Assembly: GCF_000332275.1 (NCBI RefSeq)
Contig: NZ_CM001776.1
Location: 4,338,008 to 4,402,007, forward strand
Origin: Synechococcus sp. PCC 7336
Lineage (GTDB): Bacteria > Cyanobacteriota > Cyanobacteriia > Thermostichales > PCC-7336
Length of the DNA: 64,000 bases
Direction: 5' to 3'
The translations under genes and the position numbers were made by a program. The first letter of the stretch is position 1. Every line of letters starts with the position of its first letter. Below the pieces are notes generated by a model. It had not been told where the DNA came from. It saw only the letters and a program-made list of their open reading frames with translations, and did no database searches. Positions 19,273-29,587 of this stretch are shown one piece after another.

Positions 19273-19648
19273 TCTCAACGCTAAAACTGCCGACCTAATG
19301 TCACAGACTTCGGACATTTGCCGAGCCAAATCTTTCTAAAGCTAAATTTTTTTGAATCTTTATCGCCGCACCCATTTGGCTGCTCGCTCGGGCAAACTAG
19401 TGCAATGGCACACTTTAATAGATAAATTCTCTCGATAAGGTACTGCCGATCGCAACAGAGTAGTAATAGTTTGGAAAACTTGGCTGGTCAATAGCGTTCG
19501 GAAAAACTGCAAGCGTTAAAACCGCATACGTTTCGCCAGACAAGGCATAGGTTAACGAGAATAGTTAAGTTTGCTTGGACTTCGTAGGCAAGTGAGACAA
19601 TTAAGTTCGACTACTGCTGCTCCAACTTTAAGACCACTGAAACCTTCT

Positions 19649-21136
19649 ATGGGCTCATCATCGAGATACTGGAGGTTCGTGCGGATTGATGCTGCTGGCG
19701 CGCGTAAAGTTGAAACCCTCACTCCCGCGAAGACCTTCTTCCTGCAGCAATTTGCCGATCCTACCCGCCAGCTCAACGTCGCCGACGCAGAAGTGCAGCA
19801 CCAGCTTGTAGAGTGGGTGCGCTCTGCCGATTCGGGTAGCGAGCTATCGGAGGCAGATCTCGGTCGCCGCGAGTTCGCCGAGATCTGCCTGCGCTGCTTT
19901 ATCTCGAATGTGATCGAGCAAGTGTGCGTGCAGCTTGAATCGCAATTCGGCACCAAGCACGGATTTTCCCGTTACGACCTGTTCCCGTTCGTTCTAGACG
20001 AAGGCAACCCGCTGAAGCGATCGCGCCAGTCCCGCAGTGGAACCTATCGCTCGTCGATCGGCGAGATTTTGCAAACCTTCGATCCCAGCCGTGGGGGCCT
20101 AGCGACCTGGACGGTGCGACTGGTGCGCCGCAATCGCTCTCTCAACGCCTATCTACTAGAATGTGGCGTTTATTTGATCAGTGACTGGGCCATCTTGAAC
20201 GACACCAGCCTGCCACAGGCTCGTCGCATTCTGTCGGAGTTTCACACCCTCACAGCGGTGGAGATTCGCGATGCCTGCCAGCTTTTGGAGAGCTATCACG
20301 CCGTCTACCGACGCGATCGCCTCGAACAGCGACGCACTGGCTCGGCGGGACGCTGCCAGCAGCCCAGCAACGCTCAGTTAGCAGAGATGGCCCGCTACGC
20401 GATCGGGCCAGGAGCACTCGGTCGAGCTGTCGAGCCCGAACGAGCGATCGCCTTACCTGCAAAGGTCGAGACCGATCCCGAGCGCCTGCTGAGTCAACTG
20501 CAACGACTGGCAGAGCGGTTGCGTCAGTACCGCATTTACGTGCGGGGTGGACCGGCCCCCGTCGAATCGCTCGATCGCGACTCCAGCCACAGCGGCAGGA
20601 GTGCGTTACAAGTGGCTGCTCCAGATGAGGACCTGCCGGAGCGAGAAGATCGGAATGAGTTTCTGACCTACTACCGGGCTCAGTTCTCGCGGTGTTTGGA
20701 TCGTGCCATCTCCGACACGGTCGAACGCTGGGTGACCCAGTTACAGCGCAAGAAAACCCCCAAGCACCAACCCTTCTTGCTCGGTCTATCGCTGTTTCAC
20801 TGTCAGGGGATGTCGATGGGAGACATTGCCCCCCATGTGGGACTGCGAGCTCAATATCAAGTGTCGCGCTTACTCAAGCTGAAAGAATTGCGAGCCGATA
20901 TTCGCCAAGCGCTGCTGCTCGAGTTACGCAACTGCATTCTCCAAAAACTGGAGAGCTATAAGGAGTTAGAGCAACTTCAAGAGTGGGATCGCAAGCTCGA
21001 TGCAGCACTGTCGGAACAAATCGACGAGATGCTGCAAGAAGCAGCCGCTGAAGCCAGCGTGGCCCAACATTCTCCCGCCCGCAGCCTTTATGCCCGCAGG
21101 CTTTGTCAGTACTTAGACTCCCGGGGTGCCGAATGA
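19649..21136 (+). CDS. Sigma-70-like protein at the head of the CHAT/CHASE2 operon
   Basis: About 495 residues. The middle section FDPSRGGLATWTVRLVRRN...LECGVYLISDWAILNDT (about 144-186) recalls sigma-70 region 2, where FDPxRG is followed by an aromatic DNA-melting helix. The segment LFHCQGMSMGDIAPHVGLRAQYQVSRLLKLKELR (about 383-416) reads like a region 4 helix-turn-helix. The resemblance is distant, the two parts are unusually far apart, and the linker (HSGRSALQVAAPDEDL) is probably disordered. The start is taken as the ATG at 19649; a TTG at 19571 would add 26 residues, and neither has a clear Shine-Dalgarno sequence. The stop overlaps the DUF1822 start as ATGA, so the two are translationally coupled. 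The role as an operon regulator is inferred. Confidence 0.7.
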   Translation: MGSSSRYWRFVRIDAAGARKVETLTPAKTFFLQQFADPTRQLNVADAEVQHQLVEWVRSADSGSELSEADLGRREFAEICLRCFISNVIEQVCVQLESQFGTKHGFSRYDLFPFVLDEGNPLKRSRQSRSGTYRSSIGEILQTFDPSRGGLATWTVRLVRRNRSLNAYLLECGVYLISDWAILNDTSLPQARRILSEFHTLTAVEIRDACQLLESYHAVYRRDRLEQRRTGSAGRCQQPSNAQLAEMARYAIGPGALGRAVEPERAIALPAKVETDPERLLSQLQRLAERLRQYRIYVRGGPAPVESLDRDSSHSGRSALQVAAPDEDLPEREDRNEFLTYYRAQFSRCLDRAISDTVERWVTQLQRKKTPKHQPFLLGLSLFHCQGMSMGDIAPHVGLRAQYQVSRLLKLKELRADIRQALLLELRNCILQKLESYKELEQLQEWDRKLDAALSEQIDEMLQEAAAEASVAQHSPARSLYARRLCQYLDSRGAE

Positions 21137-22542
21137 TGATCTATGACGCAACTGTGACTAACTTGATTCCCGACTTTGAAACCATGCCCCTCGGGGGGAT
21201 ATCCCTCTCGGAATTCCGCCTGCAGCAAGCGAGTCAGTTAGGCCAATCGGCCCTTCAGAATGCGCAGCAATGGTCGGCCTACCTTCAGGCACTGGCTGTT
21301 TTTGGGGTAGAAGAGTGGCTGGCCGAGCGCGGTTCGATCGCTCGCTACGATCGCTGTACCACTCTGCAACCGTCCTACGCCAGTTTCCTCTCGACGGCTT
21401 GCAACGTGCAGGTGGGTGAATTCAAGCTCTGTTTGATTCCCAGCGGTAGTTTGACGGACGAGTGGGTGAGCCTGTCGCGGGCAGCCGTAGAGTTAGCAGA
21501 GTTTGCCGCTCATTTCTACGTCATGGTTGACGTGCGAGAAGAAAACCTCTGGGTCAATGTCAAAGGCTGCGTTTCACGCGATCGCCTCTTGGAACGCTTA
21601 CAGGCGCAGCAACTGCAACCGCAGGTGGATTGGACCTACGACTGTCCGGTTGCATGGTTCGATAGCACGCCCGAAGACTTAGTATTGTGGCTGCAAGCGG
21701 CTTCCTCCAGCGCTGTCGATTTACCTGAGGTGGCTACTCCGTCGGTTACACAGCAGTTGCGCAATCGGCTAATTGAATTGCAGCCTTCTTTGGGATCGGC
21801 CCCCCTCTGGCAGGTGTTGAGCTGGGACGAGATGGCTGCCGTACTGGCAAATGCCGATTGGTCTAGCTGGCTGTACAGCACCCTCAGTGCGGCCCGCGAT
21901 CGCGCATTACAACCGGAGACACCAGCCTCGATCGCAGAACTAGAGGACTCGACAGAGAGAGAGGGACAAACCTCCAGCTCCAGTCGACCTGCGGTCTCGG
22001 ATCGAGCCATCAATGTCGGGCTGTGGCTGCAGGATAAGATGGATGCGGTCGCCCGAGAATTCGCTTGGGTATTGATGCCGCCGATGGAGAGCCAAATGCG
22101 TCTGGCTAGTGGGATGCGCACCACCGGAGAAGATGTCGATACCATCATTGGCGAATTAGAGCGGGAAGGGCTCGAAATTCCACCCCACGCTCGCGGCGCT
22201 TATCGCGACCTGCAATGGGCCGATACCTGTTTGAGGCTGTACGCGATCACTTGGCCCCATCTATCGTCTGCAAATGTACCGGAGTGGACGCTCTTAGTGG
22301 TGCTCGGACCTCAGACGGGTCGTTCGCTGCCGCCCTCCGCCCGCCTGTTGGTGCGCGATTCCGCCCAATTGTTGGTGGAGCAAACCACCACCCCCGATCG
22401 CAAAGACACCTATCTCTACGCCCGCGTTGTCGGCACTTGGGAAGAAAAATTCTGGGTGACCGTCGATCTCGATCTCAGTGCCCCCGGTTCTTCCATCTAT
22501 CTTCCGCCCTTTCAGTTTCATCCCGGCTCCACACAATTATGA
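21133..22542 (+). CDS. DUF1822 family protein
   Basis: A protein of 469 residues from the ATG at 21133, which overlaps the upstream stop (ATGA); a longer frame from 21103 lies inside the previous gene and is unlikely. The N-terminal pattern WSAYLQALAVFGVEEWLAERG is the recognisable core of DUF1822, a cyanobacterial family of unknown function. No signal peptide or membrane helix is seen, so it is likely cytosolic. The protein is rich in Trp in the pattern found in the family. The middle (about 270-310) is Ser/Thr/Glu-rich and probably a linker. Its stop again overlaps the next start (ATGA at 22539-22542), which implies coupled synthesis with the CHAT-CHASE2 protein. Confidence 0.85.
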   Translation: MMIYDATVTNLIPDFETMPLGGISLSEFRLQQASQLGQSALQNAQQWSAYLQALAVFGVEEWLAERGSIARYDRCTTLQPSYASFLSTACNVQVGEFKLCLIPSGSLTDEWVSLSRAAVELAEFAAHFYVMVDVREENLWVNVKGCVSRDRLLERLQAQQLQPQVDWTYDCPVAWFDSTPEDLVLWLQAASSSAVDLPEVATPSVTQQLRNRLIELQPSLGSAPLWQVLSWDEMAAVLANADWSSWLYSTLSAARDRALQPETPASIAELEDSTEREGQTSSSSRPAVSDRAINVGLWLQDKMDAVAREFAWVLMPPMESQMRLASGMRTTGEDVDTIIGELEREGLEIPPHARGAYRDLQWADTCLRLYAITWPHLSSANVPEWTLLVVLGPQTGRSLPPSARLLVRDSAQLLVEQTTTPDRKDTYLYARVVGTWEEKFWVTVDLDLSAPGSSIYLPPFQFHPGSTQL

Positions 22543-25160
22543 CCGTCCCGTTTGTTGCTTACCGACTGAAAGTGCAGCAGGTGGAGCGTGCCTGTCTCTT
22601 TCAGCTCTCTTGGGGGGTCAGCCAGCAACTGTCAGCGGCATTGCCTTACCCTCCAAAGCTAGCAGAAGCCTACGAGCACTGGCGACGGACCTATCTCAAT
22701 TTCTACGGTCAGTCCGCGATCGACAGGCCGCTCTCGCCGCCCAGCTCTAAACCCCCAATCTCTGGCGTTTCACCGAACTCGCTGCCCGTCCCTCCGCCAC
22801 TAGTTCCCCCTCCACCCGATCCGCCGCCCGAACCCCCCGATGCCCTGCGGGGCCGCGTTGTGGAAACTGGCAGCATGACCCCCGCTGCCAACGATTTACA
22901 CGCTCGACTGGCCAAAGCTGAAGCCACACTACTCCATCAATTTCATCGCTGGTTGCGCAGTTCGGAACTCTACGAAATTCGCTCGGAGATTGCTCGCGCC
23001 GCCTTGCGTGTCAATCGGGGTTTTGCCTTTGCTGACGAGGAACCCAGAGTCGATGTGTTTCTCACCTGTACTCCCTTCGAACTAGAACGCTTGCCCTGGG
23101 AAGCTTGGGAAATTGGCGAAGAATTTGCGGCAGCAAATAATATCCGCATTGCTCGCTACCCCGCGAACGTGCGGGAAGAACCGACTCAGCTCCCCCAACG
23201 GCGACACAATCGCATGCGGGTACTGGCGATTTTGGGGGACGATACCGGACTGGATTTCAAAGCCGATCGAGAAGCGGTGGAGCGGCTCGCTCCGGTTGCC
23301 GATGTGGAATTTATTGGCTACCAGCCGGAGCAGTCGGTGACAGAGCTCAAGCAGCAGATTGCTGAGGCTTTGGACGACGATCGCGGCTGGGACATCTTGT
23401 TTTTTGCCGGACACAGTAACGAAACGGAAGTGACGGGGGGAGAACTGGCGATCGCGCCTGGGGCGGCCCTCTCCATTCGCGAACTCACTCCCCATCTGAA
23501 ACGGGCTCGCCAGCAGGGACTCCAGTTTGCCATGTTCAATTCCTGCAGCGGTCTCAGCATTGCCAATGCCTCGATCGACTTGGGCTTGAGTCAAGTGGCG
23601 ATCGTGCGAGAGCCGATTCACAATCAGGTGGCTCAAGAGTTTTTGGTGCGGTTATTGCAAAATCTGGCAGACGGCCAAGATTCCCACGATGCCCTGCGCT
23701 CGGCCAGCAAATTTTTAAAGTCAGAAAAAAGTCTGACCTATCCTTCCTCCTACCTAATTCCGTCAATCTTTCGCCATCCCAATACCGAGCTGTTTCGCAT
23801 CGAGCGGCGGTCTTGGCGGCAGCGATTGCAGCAGGTATTGCCCAATCGGGCTCAGGCGATCGCCTTAGGAGCATTATCCCTGCTCAGTCTCTTGCCGGGG
23901 GTGCAAAATGCTCTATTGGAAGGTCGCACCTTCGGGCAGGCGATTTATCGAGATCTCACCGGTCAGCTACCCGAGACTGGAGAGCCGCCGGTTTTATTGG
24001 TGCAAATCGATCGCGAGTCGATCTTTCGCGAGGGCATCCCCGATCCCACGCCAATGGATCGGGGGTATTTAGCCAAGTTGGTGCGTGCCTTAAGCGAGCG
24101 ATCGGCTGTAACAGTCGGGATTGACTACCTGCTCGATCGCCAGCAACCCGATACCGATCCCGTGTTTGCAGCAGCGGTCGAAACAGCGATAGAAAAGTGC
24201 AGCATGTGGATGGTTTTAGCCTCCATCAGCGATCGATACCCTGCTGTGGAAGCTGCCGATATTGCCCCTTTGGAATGGACGTTGCGGGGGAATATCAATG
24301 GCAGTCATACGCATCTCAAATTGCCGCCACTACAGGGATATGACGGGCAAAACCTGCCATTTGGCTATCTGCTGGCGTTGGTTTGGGCGATCGAGGAGGA
24401 GCCCCTCGGAGCCGATCGGGTAGAGCCAGATTTAACCAGTGAGATGCTGTTGCAGGTGCAGCTCCTATCGACAGCATCGGCGATCGACGCGCCCGAGAGT
24501 CCCGTCAGCCATCTCAAGCGATTGCGATCTTCCCCAATTACCGAGGGGTCTACCTATTTCGGGCAGCGCTGGCTGCATCCCATTATTGATTTTTCGATTC
24601 CCCCCGATCGCGTCTACGAGCGCATGCCCGCTTGGCAACTTTTAGAAGGGCCTGCCCAACTTGCTGGCGATGGAGCAACCGATCGCCAGCAAATTGCGAT
24701 TGTTGCTCCTGGCGGATACGAAGAGGCAGGCATTGGTAAGGCTGACTATTTCCCCCTGCCTGCTGCCATGAGCTACTGGCGGGAGAAGGGGGCTGCAGGA
24801 GAGATCGAGTTTGAGGGGATAGGGCTCGAAAACGCTGCTGTTTATACCGGTGCCGAAGTTCACGCTTACAATATTCATCACTTTCTCAACCGCCATTTAG
24901 TCACTCCGGTACCAGATTTATGGTTGGTAGCACTATCGGCGGTGGGGGGTAAAACGATCGCGGTTTGGATGGAGAAGCAACAACGCCAATCCCCCACGCG
25001 GTGGCTGGCTGTGAAGCTGCTGGCGATCGGGACGGGTCTGTACGCGCTGATTAGCGTACAACTCTATATTTCTTCGACTGTGCTGCTGCCGGTGGTTTTG
25101 CCTGCGACAACGCTATGGACCTATGTATTGCTGTCTTGGAGGAGAACGAGTCGTGATTAA
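22539..25160 (+). CDS. CHAT (caspase-like) protease fused to a CHASE2 sensor domain, membrane protein
   Basis: 873 residues from the ATG at 22539; the frame extends 108 codons upstream but lies inside DUF1822. An N-terminal unit (MTVPFVAYRLKVQQ) is followed by a Pro-rich linker at about 64-104. The CHAT domain spans about 225-418, with the predicted catalytic dyad His292 (FAGHS) and Cys336 (FNSCSGL). A hydrophobic helix lies near 438-456. A CHASE2 domain follows (PVLLVQIDRESIFREG onward), and the protein ends in hydrophobic helices (WLAVKLLAIGTGLYALISVQ, STVLLPVVLPATTLW). CHASE2 is an extracytoplasmic sensor module and CHAT domains are caspase-like cysteine proteases, so this looks like a sensor-gated protease. 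Substrate and signal are unknown. It overlaps DUF1822 by 4 bp and DUF928 by 8 bp. Confidence 0.88.
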   Translation: MTVPFVAYRLKVQQVERACLFQLSWGVSQQLSAALPYPPKLAEAYEHWRRTYLNFYGQSAIDRPLSPPSSKPPISGVSPNSLPVPPPLVPPPPDPPPEPPDALRGRVVETGSMTPAANDLHARLAKAEATLLHQFHRWLRSSELYEIRSEIARAALRVNRGFAFADEEPRVDVFLTCTPFELERLPWEAWEIGEEFAAANNIRIARYPANVREEPTQLPQRRHNRMRVLAILGDDTGLDFKADREAVERLAPVADVEFIGYQPEQSVTELKQQIAEALDDDRGWDILFFAGHSNETEVTGGELAIAPGAALSIRELTPHLKRARQQGLQFAMFNSCSGLSIANASIDLGLSQVAIVREPIHNQVAQEFLVRLLQNLADGQDSHDALRSASKFLKSEKSLTYPSSYLIPSIFRHPNTELFRIERRSWRQRLQQVLPNRAQAIALGALSLLSLLPGVQNALLEGRTFGQAIYRDLTGQLPETGEPPVLLVQIDRESIFREGIPDPTPMDRGYLAKLVRALSERSAVTVGIDYLLDRQQPDTDPVFAAAVETAIEKCSMWMVLASISDRYPAVEAADIAPLEWTLRGNINGSHTHLKLPPLQGYDGQNLPFGYLLALVWAIEEEPLGADRVEPDLTSEMLLQVQLLSTASAIDAPESPVSHLKRLRSSPITEGSTYFGQRWLHPIIDFSIPPDRVYERMPAWQLLEGPAQLAGDGATDRQQIAIVAPGGYEEAGIGKADYFPLPAAMSYWREKGAAGEIEFEGIGLENAAVYTGAEVHAYNIHHFLNRHLVTPVPDLWLVALSAVGGKTIAVWMEKQQRQSPTRWLAVKLLAIGTGLYALISVQLYISSTVLLPVVLPATTLWTYVLLSWRRTSRD

Positions 25161-25935
25161 TCTACACAGACAGAGATCGATCGGTTGGGCGATCGCCGCC
25201 TCGATTGTTTTGACTGGGGGAGGATTGTATCGAGCCGTCTGGGCTCAAACCAATACCGCTGTATCAGTGCCGACAGCCACAGAGGCTGCTGGCCGTGCTG
25301 GCGATGTCTCGACCCGCGCTCGCACTTCCCCGTTGATTGCTGCTCTGAACACCTTGCGCAATAAATTGAGACAGGAGGAACGGCCTTTGGGCTCCCGCGC
25401 CTTGGCCTGTCCTTATACGCCGGGGTTGTTGGGGGAGGATGACAGCATTTGGAGCGATTTACCGGTTTTTATGTGGTATGCCTCGGTGCAGCAGGTGATG
25501 CTGTACGACTACGAAACGAATGAGTTGCTGTGGCAGCAGAGGGTGGAGGAGGGCGATCGCCGCGTTGACTACACTGGCGATCGACTGCAGCCCGGTCGCA
25601 TCTATCGCTGGAAGTTAACTCATCCCGATACGGCGGATTTTGAAGGTACGTTTGCGGTTTTGCCTGCAGAAGAGCGCGCTCGCATTGCGATCGAGTTAGA
25701 GCAATTGAAAGCGGAACTGGTTGGGGGGGGAGCGAATGATAGCGATCTTGCGGTAGCGCGGGCTAACTATTTTGGGGCGCGCCAGCTCTGGTCGGATGCC
25801 CTGAGCGAACTCCACGCGATCGGCGATGCTGACATGGAAGTGGCGGCGGCGGCGGAAGAAATGGCGAATTATCTCTGCAATCCGGGGGGATTGCAGGCGG
25901 ATGGCGAGGGTGGCCATTCCGAGGACAATAGCTAG
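25153..25935 (+). CDS. DUF928 family exported protein
   Basis: 260 residues from the GTG at 25153, chosen because GGAGGAG lies 8 nt upstream at 25138-25144; an ATG at 25123 inside the preceding gene lacks this. An N-terminal helix (WAIAASIVLTGGGLYRAVWA) looks like a signal peptide with cleavage near AQT. The central region (LPVFMWYASVQQVMLYDYETNELLWQQ) and GRIYRWKLTHPD fit DUF928, a cyanobacterial family often found near CHAT, CHASE2 and haemagglutinin-type genes. Cys occur at LACPY and YLCNP. The 3' half is helical, Ala-rich and acidic. It is the last gene of the operon, and its stop overlaps that of the convergent exoprotein in CTAG at 25932-25935. Confidence 0.83.
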   Translation: MINLHRQRSIGWAIAASIVLTGGGLYRAVWAQTNTAVSVPTATEAAGRAGDVSTRARTSPLIAALNTLRNKLRQEERPLGSRALACPYTPGLLGEDDSIWSDLPVFMWYASVQQVMLYDYETNELLWQQRVEEGDRRVDYTGDRLQPGRIYRWKLTHPDTADFEGTFAVLPAEERARIAIELEQLKAELVGGGANDSDLAVARANYFGARQLWSDALSELHAIGDADMEVAAAAEEMANYLCNPGGLQADGEGGHSEDNS

Positions 25936-28847
25936 CTAGGGCTGAGGCAGGTAGAAGGGGCAGCGCTGGTCACCACCTGACTGGAGACTTCAATCGGGTT
26001 TGCGGTCAGAACCACTTGCCCTGCCGCGTTAACGTACCATCCTTGAGCTTCGACGATGCGCTGTCTGGGTTCGGTTTGACGGATGGATTGATTCGGCGGT
26101 GGTGTTGAAAGGGTCGAGGTGCTGGCAAGGTTGTCGGGGCGGGTAACCCATTGACGTTCTATCAGGGCTTCGCCGGTCAGGGGTTCGTTGGGATCGGGGG
26201 ATAATCCGCCTCGTCCTGCCAAGATGAATTGGCTTTGTTCGTCGTCGGGACTGCCAAAGTTGCAGGTGGAGCCAATCAAGTTGGAGAGATCGCTGAATTG
26301 GACTTGGCGTTCTTCTAGACCTCGTGCGGGATCGGTGTCGAGCACGTCGATGATGATGTCTCCATCGACGCCAAGTTCCGAACTGGCACTGATGTTGTTG
26401 GCTTCTGCGGGGTCGGGACCGAGGGTAAAGCCCAAGACTGAGAAGGCGGTGAGGGTAATGTTGCCCCCATCCCCTTCAAAGGCATTGGCAATAATGTTGA
26501 CATCTTCGCCGGGGATACCGACGATAAAGTCTGCTTCGATGTCGATATCGCCGCCGTTACCGTCGTTTCCAGCTTCAGTCGTAATGTTGCTATTGCGGCG
26601 CAGCAGGAGTAGGTCGTGAATGTTGAAGCTCAGATCTCCTCCTTCTCCGCTGGCGGTGGCTGCCGAGATCGAAGATCCGGTATCTAGGGTTAGGTCGCCA
26701 GATACGATATGCAGTGCGCCTGCGTCTCCATCGCCCAGACTATCCACCGCAATGGAGGCTTGTTCGAATAGAGAGGTGTCTTCGGATTTGATAGATATAC
26801 TGCCTCCCGAACCGGTAGAACCAGCGGTGGTATTGGCAAAGATGCCGCTGGGGTTGCCTGCTGGGTCTGTGCCTCTGACGAGCAGATCTTCTTTGACGTG
26901 AATGCTAATATCGCCTGCGTCGCCTGCTGCCGATGTGCTGGTTTCAATGGTGCTGCCTCCTAAGAGAGCCAGTCTGTTACCGGTGAGGTTAATATCGCCT
27001 GCGTTGCTTGCTCCTGCGGTAGAGGCTGCGACGGTACTGTCTCCGGTTAGGCGGGTATTGGCAACGTCGATGTCGATGCTTCCTCCCAAGCCGCCGTTTT
27101 CTGATGTCGAACTGGTGATGGTGGAGCGATCGTTCAAGCGCAGCAGGTTGCCGTGCAGGTCAATTGTTCCGGCGTTTCCCGGCCCGGTGGTTTCTGCGGT
27201 AATGGTGCCATTCGTTAAGTCAATTCTGTCTACAGCTAGTGAGATATTTCCACCTTCTCCAGTACCAGTCTGAGTTTCACTAGAAATAACAGAATTTTCG
27301 GATAGAGACAGAGCATTTCCAGTAATGGATATTTCTCCAGCATCTCCAATGCCCGTTCCAGAGGTCCGTTGTGTGCTAATTTCACTGCCACCGCTCAAGC
27401 TGACATGATTTACCGAAATTTCAATATTTCCTGGCGTAATAGCATCGCCAGCTGTTTGACTAGAGATACTCGCTCCTTCTGTCAAGTTCAAACTTTTACC
27501 AAAGATCGAAATAGCTCCAGCCTGTTGAGCATTACCGATGGAGCTGGTATCAATATCAATGCCAGATAGAGTAACCTCTCTAGCTTGAATCGAGATTTCA
27601 CCAGCACTTGTACCTACTCCAGCGGCATTGGCAGATATTGTCACGCCATCTGTAATGATAATAGAGCCTGTTTCTAAAGATGTTTCAAAAGAAATTTCAC
27701 CACTATTACCTCCTCCAGAGCTATCAGCAGAAATGATTACGTTACCTTGCAAGAAAATCTCGTTACCAGCATAAAAGGAGATGCTTCCAGCATCATCCGT
27801 ATCACTAGCTATTGATGAAATATTAGTTTCAAGTCCTTGAGGAGAATCAATTATTGAAATTGAGTCGCGTGCATTCAGGTCGATATTACCTTCACTACTT
27901 TCACCTTGTGTGATTTGCACATCCATTACGTCAATAGAACCTCCAAAAACCACAACATCTCCTCCGAAGAACTCAGAAATATTAGAATTTAGCAACGAGA
28001 TATTTCCGCCATCGAGAACATTTTCAAATTGTGCAAACGGAGCAGTACCATAGTTGTTATCGCCAAACTGGCTTTGAAGTTCTACTCTTCCTCCTCCAGT
28101 TCCTATTGCTCCAAAGGCAATTTGTCCAGGAGCTTCAGAAGCAGAAGGACTAAGTGGTAGACGACTTATCAAAAGATTATTGTTTATATTAACCTCTCCA
28201 CCAATTAGCAGCAAACTGGAATCTGGATTTACAATCAATAAATTATTTTCAACATTGATCGAGCCTAGCTGAGGGCTCATACTTCCTACTTGAGGTAGCT
28301 GATTAAATATTAGTGCTGTCGGATTAATTGCTAGCATTGGTGCTGGTTCGCTAGAGTCCAAAGCACTAAAGACCCCTTGAGAGCCAAACTCAATTGCTGA
28401 GGCTGTAGTACCAACAAAAGCCCCTTGAACATTAAGCAAAGCATTAGGGCCAAATGAAATTCCGTTTGGATTAATTAAAAATAGATTAGCTGGTTGAGGA
28501 CCTATGGTTGAGATAGATCCATCAATATTTGAGACGCTGTTGCCCGTTACACGACTAATAATATTTTGGATGTTATTCATTATTCCAGCAGGAAGACTCG
28601 TGTCAAATACAACTGCCTCTCCAGTAGGCACTGAAAAATCTGTAAAGCTGTGGAATTGATTGATACCTATGACCGTATTGCCAGTAACTAAGCAACCTCC
28701 GACACAATTGCCTGCCATATTATCATCAACGTTTGTATAAGTTGAACCATCTGCCACGGGTTGTGATTGAGAAACCCTTGCTATGAAAATCATCGTGAGG
28801 GTTAAGCCAATACTGCGTGTAACCACACGCCAAAGAGAAAATCTCAT
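25932..28847 (-). CDS. Filamentous-haemagglutinin-type exoprotein (TPS domain, two-partner secretion)
   Basis: A 971-residue exported protein. The signal peptide MRFSLWRVVTRSIGLTLTM is followed by a haemagglutination/TPS secretion domain at about 35-160 (NQFHSFTDFSVPTGE, NLFLINPNGISFGPNALLNV). A long, repetitive right-handed beta-helix-like region (many NIS, GSI and GDI repeats) follows, then a C-terminal block with Cys and FILAGRGGLSPDPNEPL, a motif common in cyanobacterial members. No TpsB transporter is adjacent. The gene is a composition mosaic: the N-terminal coding half (about 27.25-28.85 kb) is AT-rich, the C-terminal half GC-rich. It converges on DUF928 with a 4-bp stop overlap. It is probably secreted or displayed at the surface; the role is unknown. 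Confidence 0.85.
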   Translation of the reverse strand: MRFSLWRVVTRSIGLTLTMIFIARVSQSQPVADGSTYTNVDDNMAGNCVGGCLVTGNTVIGINQFHSFTDFSVPTGEAVVFDTSLPAGIMNNIQNIISRVTGNSVSNIDGSISTIGPQPANLFLINPNGISFGPNALLNVQGAFVGTTASAIEFGSQGVFSALDSSEPAPMLAINPTALIFNQLPQVGSMSPQLGSINVENNLLIVNPDSSLLLIGGEVNINNNLLISRLPLSPSASEAPGQIAFGAIGTGGGRVELQSQFGDNNYGTAPFAQFENVLDGGNISLLNSNISEFFGGDVVVFGGSIDVMDVQITQGESSEGNIDLNARDSISIIDSPQGLETNISSIASDTDDAGSISFYAGNEIFLQGNVIISADSSGGGNSGEISFETSLETGSIIITDGVTISANAAGVGTSAGEISIQAREVTLSGIDIDTSSIGNAQQAGAISIFGKSLNLTEGASISSQTAGDAITPGNIEISVNHVSLSGGSEISTQRTSGTGIGDAGEISITGNALSLSENSVISSETQTGTGEGGNISLAVDRIDLTNGTITAETTGPGNAGTIDLHGNLLRLNDRSTITSSTSENGGLGGSIDIDVANTRLTGDSTVAASTAGASNAGDINLTGNRLALLGGSTIETSTSAAGDAGDISIHVKEDLLVRGTDPAGNPSGIFANTTAGSTGSGGSISIKSEDTSLFEQASIAVDSLGDGDAGALHIVSGDLTLDTGSSISAATASGEGGDLSFNIHDLLLLRRNSNITTEAGNDGNGGDIDIEADFIVGIPGEDVNIIANAFEGDGGNITLTAFSVLGFTLGPDPAEANNISASSELGVDGDIIIDVLDTDPARGLEERQVQFSDLSNLIGSTCNFGSPDDEQSQFILAGRGGLSPDPNEPLTGEALIERQWVTRPDNLASTSTLSTPPPNQSIRQTEPRQRIVEAQGWYVNAAGQVVLTANPIEVSSQVVTSAAPSTCLSPS

Positions 28848-29212: not shown

Positions 29213-29587
29213 TTATGTATTCAACGCAACCGTGATTTCTACTTTTGCATGTGTGCAGAGGGCAATACCTGAATACCTTGCGACTGCATCTCGGATCAAT
29301 GTTCCAGGACTATCGAGGTGTATATTATCAATAGTAAATAGTATTCGATTACCATTACTAGGATCGACTATAAGCAAATCCACTAAATCATTAGGATCTA
29401 AATCCGTACTACATGGCGGGTTAGAGAAAGAATTCTTACCTGTTTTGGTTGAAAGTACTTGAGCAGCGTTTTCACTCACGAGTGTATCTTTGTTTGGACA
29501 GCAGAAGCAGATTGTGTCTGGCACAGCAGTGCAGTTAAATCCAAGAGTGAAGTCTAAATAGTTTACTGTTAGCGTTGTTGTTTGCAT
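29213..29587 (-). CDS. Cys-rich orphan protein of unknown function
   Basis: A 124-residue protein with six Cys (19, 27, 29, 30, 59, 111), three of them clustered as CFCCP. AAGGAG lies 7 nt before the ATG at 29587, which strongly supports translation. I see no signal peptide, helix-turn-helix or known catalytic motif. The second half (LVDLLIVDPSNGNRILFTIDN) looks beta-rich and could be a small sandwich domain. The gene is AT-rich and sits in an AT-rich, HIP1-poor patch between the exoprotein and apt, which suggests recent arrival. Disulphide formation or metal binding is possible but not shown. Confidence 0.65.
   Translation of the reverse strand: MQTTTLTVNYLDFTLGFNCTAVPDTICFCCPNKDTLVSENAAQVLSTKTGKNSFSNPPCSTDLDPNDLVDLLIVDPSNGNRILFTIDNIHLDSPGTLIRDAVARYSGIALCTHAKVEITVALNT

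Follow-up and report, generated by a model that had tools for sequence, protein, structure and literature searches.

We analysed a stretch of 64,000 nucleotides of the chromosome of Synechococcus sp. PCC 7336, which we call the window. It holds a four-gene operon that we explain as a signalling module linking the membrane to transcription through regulated proteolysis, in which a freed sigma factor would drive its own operon and local targets; we put about even confidence in this explanation. The evidence that we established computationally is the conservation of the operon, the fold and homology of the sigma factor, the intact protease dyad, a promoter class with local targets in relatives, and the covariation of that promoter with the sigma4 region.

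In the mechanism that we propose, a CHASE2 domain and an exported DUF928-like partner would sense something outside the inner membrane, and the signal would gate a cytoplasmic CHAT protease. CHAT may then inactivate the DUF1822 protein and so release the co-encoded sigma factor, a step that we take by analogy with Craspase. Using AAAAYTGCATAAG-N9-YCAGAAATA promoters, the freed sigma factor would transcribe its own operon along with local targets, which may include TPR-CHAT proteases, TPR proteins, subtilases and caspases, with TPS exoproteins added in some lineages.

Gene organization

The unit opens with the gene for a divergent sigma-70-family factor (495 aa; 19649..21136, + strand; ATG at 19649, stop TGA at 21136), whose frame is already open from a TTG at 19571. 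On the same strand follow a DUF1822 gene (469 aa; 21133..22542; ATG at 21133; PF08852, E 4.2e-38), the gene for a CHAT-CHASE2 membrane protease (873 aa; 22539..25160; ATG at 22539, TAA at 25160; Pfam CHAT and CHASE2) and the gene for a DUF928-like exported protein (260 aa; 25153..25935; GTG at 25153), which we assigned by profile comparison. The sigma and DUF1822 genes overlap by 4 bp (ATGA), as do the DUF1822 and CHAT-CHASE2 genes (again ATGA), and the CHAT-CHASE2 and DUF928-like genes overlap by 8 bp. A GGAGGAG Shine-Dalgarno sequence (25138..25144, + strand) sits in the 3' end of the CHAT-CHASE2 gene, 8 nt 5' of the DUF928-like GTG.

These coordinates bear out the original prediction, made from the DNA sequence, that overlaps tie the four genes together and that a fifth gene shares a 4-bp stop overlap from the opposite strand. 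The fifth gene (971 aa; 25932..28847, - strand) is convergent on the four-gene unit and shares that overlap with the DUF928-like gene. It had been called a haemagglutinin-type exoprotein, and its product does have a TPS domain of the filamentous haemagglutinin type (PF05860, E 3.7e-34; TIGR01901, 7e-22). Beside it lies a 124-aa ORF (window 29213-29587, - strand) with a good ribosome site and a product outside the Pfam families.

Pfam recognized DUF1822 (E 4e-38), CHASE2 (4.5e-13), CHAT (2.3e-9) and TPS (3.7e-34) among the window proteins. The sigma-like and DUF928-like proteins had no Pfam match of their own, so these two labels required further evidence. The source genome, a single 5.07-Mb chromosome, contains one DUF1822 gene and five CHASE2 regions. 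Its one TPS-domain gene is the window gene at 25932-28847.

The sigma factor and the DUF1822 protein

The combined profile and fold evidence leads us to read the first gene as encoding a divergent sigma-70 factor, with the predicted sigma2 and sigma4 folds following in order. Sequence searches of Pfam, NCBIfam and the PDB did not give this assignment; there was no sigma match to the window protein in Pfam at E up to 1 or in NCBIfam at E up to 0.01, and the link came through homologues found by neighbourhood. Sigma homologues encoded directly 5' of DUF1822 genes at paralogous loci reach TIGR02937 (sigma70-ECF) with E values near 1e-31, and the window sigma family aligns with these DUF1822-linked homologues in hhalign with a probability of 99.3 (E 2e-20). 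When the family was compared directly, profile to profile, with the short ECF-like proteins (~220 aa) found at other DUF1822 loci, only 18 columns aligned.

The window protein has a sigma2-like region at about residues 15-173, a long middle insertion, and a sigma4-like HTH at about 373-427. Its AF2 model has a pLDDT of 87. The 50 best VIA-align rows for this model are all sigma-factor or RNA-polymerase-complex chains, with Z of 8.7-7.5, a level that on its own is modest for a helical protein; the sigma2 region superposes at an rmsd of 3.3 Å over 114 residues (Z 8.7). With Foldseek on its own, neither the sigma nor the DUF1822 model reached a match with E below 0.001. What had been predicted to be transcription-factor-like can thus be named more closely through its homologues, the profile comparison and the fold, and standard annotation overlooks this sigma factor.

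The AF2 model of the DUF1822 protein (pLDDT 86.7) consists of mixed alpha/beta domains and has no TPR array, whereas the passage of PMC8195603 that deals with such proteins terms DUF1822 a TPR protein. The N-terminal part resembles PD-(D/E)XK nucleases (Z up to 7.3) and the C-terminal part Ig-like domains (Z up to 6.2). Both resemblances are weak, and because the best matches reach Z 7.3 at most, a confident fold is not assignable. We presume that the protein inhibits the co-encoded sigma factor or serves as its adaptor.

Conservation among cyanobacteria

Orthologues of the window CHAT-CHASE2 protein, at 40-49% identity, are found in many cyanobacterial families. We surveyed 80 orthologous loci, and the denominators of the next two counts are the loci with enough flank. 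A DUF928-like gene lies 3' of CHAT-CHASE2 in 63/77 loci. Sigma and DUF1822 genes are both present upstream in 46/66, and in about a third of the loci with enough flank there is no recognizable sigma/DUF1822 pair upstream. The CHAT-CHASE2 and DUF928-like genes overlap by exactly 8 bp in 33 of 63 loci, and another 7 have a 4-bp overlap; with this recurrence the overlaps are not chance. The original prediction had asked whether the gene order would prove unconserved in a neighbourhood survey. We found the order kept across the phylum, and together with the overlaps in the orthologous loci it supports the claim of one conserved co-translated unit. DUF1822 itself was found in 188 of the 292 genomes that we sampled.

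Some loci vary the arrangement. L144 (4361-9919), L159 (6445-9930) and similar Nostocales loci have an inserted TPR-CHAT gene (~850-1850 aa) that separates DUF1822 from CHAT-CHASE2, often with a TGCATA promoter of its own. In Okeania loci that lack sigma and DUF1822, the gene ahead of CHAT-CHASE2 is a beta-lactamase-like one (PF13354; e.g., L129:2382-3794).

A promoter class in relatives

The regions upstream of the sigma gene relatives have a fixed-spacing element in common, TGCATAAG...CAGAAATA, with the full form given above for the orthologous loci. The distance from TGCATA to AGA is 20 bp in 26 of 29 training sites. We trained a matrix solely on the regions upstream of sigma genes in the orthologous loci, and it found 176 matches in 1.41 Mb (~8 expected). 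There were 39 matches before sigma genes and 65 before a cluster of TPR-CHAT and TPR genes, with further ones before subtilase (9), CHAT-CHASE2 (7), DUF1822 (5), TPS (4) and caspase (2) genes; the sites are most often 40-60 bp from the start of these target genes. ORFs of more than 150 aa make up 82% of the sequence, yet 159 of the 176 matches lie outside them.

Spacing matters for these counts. Column-shuffled matrices gave 3-10 matches against 127 at the true spacing, and TGCATA-N14/15-AGAAATA occurred 54 times, with no occurrence at N8-13 or N16-20 and none for scrambled words. We also compared the orthologous loci with paralogous DUF1822 loci, many of them from the same genomes. The former had 49 matches in 0.52 Mb and the latter 4 in 0.74 Mb; because some loci share species, this comparison retains some dependence on the training set.

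The -35 element comes in classes that are never mixed within a locus: 10 loci have TGAATA sites only (one TGTATA) and 76 have TGCATA only. The base changes from C to A at all sites of one sigma clade, and the sigma residues differ along with it. The TGAATA-class sigmas form this one clade with support of 100/99. Five alignment columns separate TGAATA from TGCATA sigmas fully, three of them (401, 403, 413) in or beside the predicted sigma4 HTH, and since all of the former come from a single clade these columns count as one evolutionary change. The sigma4 region is the part of a sigma factor that reads -35 elements. That all sites of a locus change together is what one would expect of a single trans-acting factor reading them, and we infer that the co-encoded sigma factor is probably what reads the TGCATAAG...CAGAAATA promoters.

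One could instead suppose that another regulator reads this element and that the sigma protein acts elsewhere, as the lack of a clear site at the window copy might suggest. We consider this improbable, because the fixed spacing of the two blocks is promoter-like, the sites accompany the sigma locus rather than paralogous DUF1822 loci, and the -35 base covaries with both the sigma clade and the sigma4 residues.

When we counted the exact promoter pattern in 292 genomes, the counts were near background in most and the genomes were not clearly separated, so we take the regulon to be local or small and claim no genome-wide regulon.

Sites in the window and its genome

No match of the promoter matrix reaches the threshold in the window. 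There is a degenerate candidate for a sigma-dependent promoter (AAAACCGCATACG...AGGCATA; 19518..19549, + strand) about 100 bp 5' of the sigma ATG. Its spacing is like that of the orthologues; the left half scores 9.7 bits and the right half -8.7 bits, which is not significant alone. We rejected a second promoter pattern for the window genome as circular, since it was drawn from this site itself. The window sigma factor carries the TGCATA-type residues A401, Y403 and E413. With the degenerate candidate being all that the window has, we regard the promoter class as established for the relatives and as predicted for the window organism.

Elsewhere in the source genome there are two good sites in all. 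One is perfect (C1:2515311) and lies 39 bp before a 189-aa ORF (L208:8710-9279, - strand) whose product has no family assignment. The other has a single mismatch (C1:4412665) and lies in L222 (C1:4402000-4421000), about 10 kb past the window, upstream of genes for small proteins in which FRGR motifs recur.

The protease and its DUF928-like partner

In the 873-aa protein, CHAT spans about residues 178-397 and CHASE2 about 448-803. Hydropathy gives a membrane segment at 441-459 and two C-terminal ones at 822-840 and 847-865. The catalytic dyad had been numbered correctly as His292 and Cys336; both residues are in the CHAT domain and are intact in 81/81 sequences. The predicted caspase-like protease joined to a sensor is therefore well founded, with CHAT and CHASE2 in one protein by Pfam and an invariant dyad. 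CHAT precedes the first membrane segment, and with the usual topology of CHASE2 this places CHASE2 outside and makes it probable that the CHAT domain faces the cytoplasm. Residues 1-100 are conserved among orthologues, and no model came up for EACC2, the N-terminal domain that precedes the caspase domain in EACC2-caspase systems.

For the last gene, the gathering score of Pfam DUF928 (PF06051) was not reached: the window copy had no match, and 6 of 16 orthologues matched weakly, the best at 4e-4. Comparison with the Pfam-DUF928 set in hhalign gave a probability of 95.5 (E 1.4e-8). Because of these two results we use the label DUF928-like, and the exported DUF928 protein of the original prediction is kept under that name, by profile comparison only. 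All 47 of the DUF928-like proteins have an N-terminal hydrophobic segment and 46/47 keep both cysteines (86 and 242 in the window copy), features as expected for an exported, disulfide-bonded protein.

A second pair in the same genome consists of an AAA_35-CHASE2 gene and a true DUF928 gene (Pfam 6.7e-33), convergent at C1:3367801-3371451 (L038:5802-9452). Among the 30 best DUF928 matches, at least 22 have a CHASE2 or CHAT-CHASE2 match no more than about 3 kb away, as counted by eye. From this pair and these matches we conclude that DUF928 accompanies CHASE2 whatever the cytoplasmic module. DUF928 genes beside CHASE2 genes of other architectures thus support a role for the DUF928-like protein as the likely CHASE2 partner.

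The neighbouring exoprotein

Most of the orthologous loci have no TPS gene nearby, and we rejected the TPS gene as a core member of the operon. The window gene shares its TPS domain with the TpsA two-partner-secretion exoproteins. In one Nostocales group, TPS genes lie on the same strand directly 3' of the DUF928-like gene, and the promoter motif precedes four of them. Convergent TPS genes near the operon end are found in the window and in two other lineages (L099 and L103). There is no significant promoter motif upstream of the window TPS gene. Given this and the many loci with no TPS gene, we treat the exoprotein as an optional neighbour and, most plausibly, as one optional output among several. 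The idea that the pathway controls a surface protein thus holds in part, for those Nostocales TPS genes that carry the motif beside the operon and with the convergent arrangement recurring in other lineages, and does not extend to the window gene or to most loci.

The original prediction also raised proteolytic maturation of the exoprotein. It is very unlikely, in our judgement, that the CHAT protease matures or releases it. The gene does adjoin the operon and is the sole TPS gene of its genome, and the convergent genes of L099 and L103 fit the same idea. However, TPS proteins leave the cell through the periplasm, and CHAT, lying before the first membrane segment, is probably cytoplasmic; the lack of a nearby TPS gene at most orthologous loci also speaks against it. 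Our literature search for a link between CHAT and haemagglutinin in cyanobacteria found none.

Relation to known systems

Parts of this arrangement have been described. An in silico survey (Kaur et al. 2021, PMC8195603) reports, in its passage on these systems, caspase-domain proteins, including a CHASE2 type, beside ECF sigma and DUF1822 genes, and proposes sensing, autoproteolysis and sigma output for EACC2-caspase/ECF/DUF1822 systems. Like the systems of that passage, the window has a caspase-superfamily protease with a C-terminal CHASE2, an adjoining DUF1822 in an overlapping gene, and an adjoining ECF sigma, recognized in the window by profile and fold and not by Pfam. The description of the operon as an undescribed system was therefore too strong. 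The EACC2-caspase passage makes no mention of DUF928, TPS exoproteins, conserved translational coupling or a promoter class, and the window sigma is set apart further by being long and invisible to Pfam. In the literature covered by our search (most subscription papers were outside its scope), we found neither the DUF928 member and the conserved overlap reported nor the promoter class with its coevolution, and no mention of TPR-CHAT, subtilase or TPS genes as targets. What appears to be new is the DUF928 member, together with the promoter class and its regulon.

The same survey bears on a different purpose for these genes. The operon could be a conflict or cell-death module, in which a CHASE2-gated CHAT protease and sigma-controlled TPR-CHAT proteases and caspases form an immunity or suicide cascade with the sigma factor as amplifier. 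We hold this to be possible and rather unlikely. The relevant passage of PMC8195603 has such neighbourhoods and proposes autopeptidase activation and sigma-mediated transcription for them, and the predicted regulon is rich in proteases; against this, the TPS exoproteins and the exported DUF928 point to the envelope. The wiring would be alike in the cell-death module and in the signalling module that we favor, and the two differ mainly in biological purpose.

The RseA/DegS/sigma-E pathway runs from an extracytoplasmic signal through a protease and an inhibitor to an ECF sigma. The window protease differs from that scheme in being caspase-like and fused to its own sensor. Craspase (Csx29/Csx30/CASP-sigma) shares a CHAT protease and a sigma factor with the window operon. 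In this type III-E CRISPR system the CHAT protease cleaves Csx30 and relieves sigma inhibition, as found experimentally, and its own locus has predicted sigma sites (PMC10028731, which also names RseA/DegS/sigma-E regulated proteolysis as a parallel). Craspase is activated by target RNA via Cas7-11, whereas we propose that the window operon would be activated by its membrane sensor. The analogy itself does not require a Cas7-11 effector or a CRISPR array. Our proposal sets DUF1822 in the role of a Csx30-type inhibitor. That DUF1822 would inhibit the sigma factor and that CHAT would cleave DUF1822, we infer by this analogy.

Implications

Taken at its widest, our explanation is a CRISPR-independent, phylum-wide CHAT-protease/sigma pathway, in which a membrane sensor-protease would control a sigma factor with a coevolving promoter class and thereby drive the operon and local proteases, subtilases and exoproteins; we judge the chances for and against it to be roughly balanced. 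The promoter sequence is directly testable in a reporter, for example as AAAACTGCATAAG-N9-CCAGAAATATA. CHAT, CHASE2, DUF1822 and DUF928 proteins are abundant in cyanobacteria and mostly have no assignment, and our result would join them in one pathway with a transcription output. It also suggests that the Craspase type of protease-to-sigma logic is a wider theme, driven here by an envelope sensor instead of RNA. The presence of the same DNA switch before the operon and before neighbouring protease and surface-protein genes in relatives suggests a new envelope-to-gene signalling pathway.
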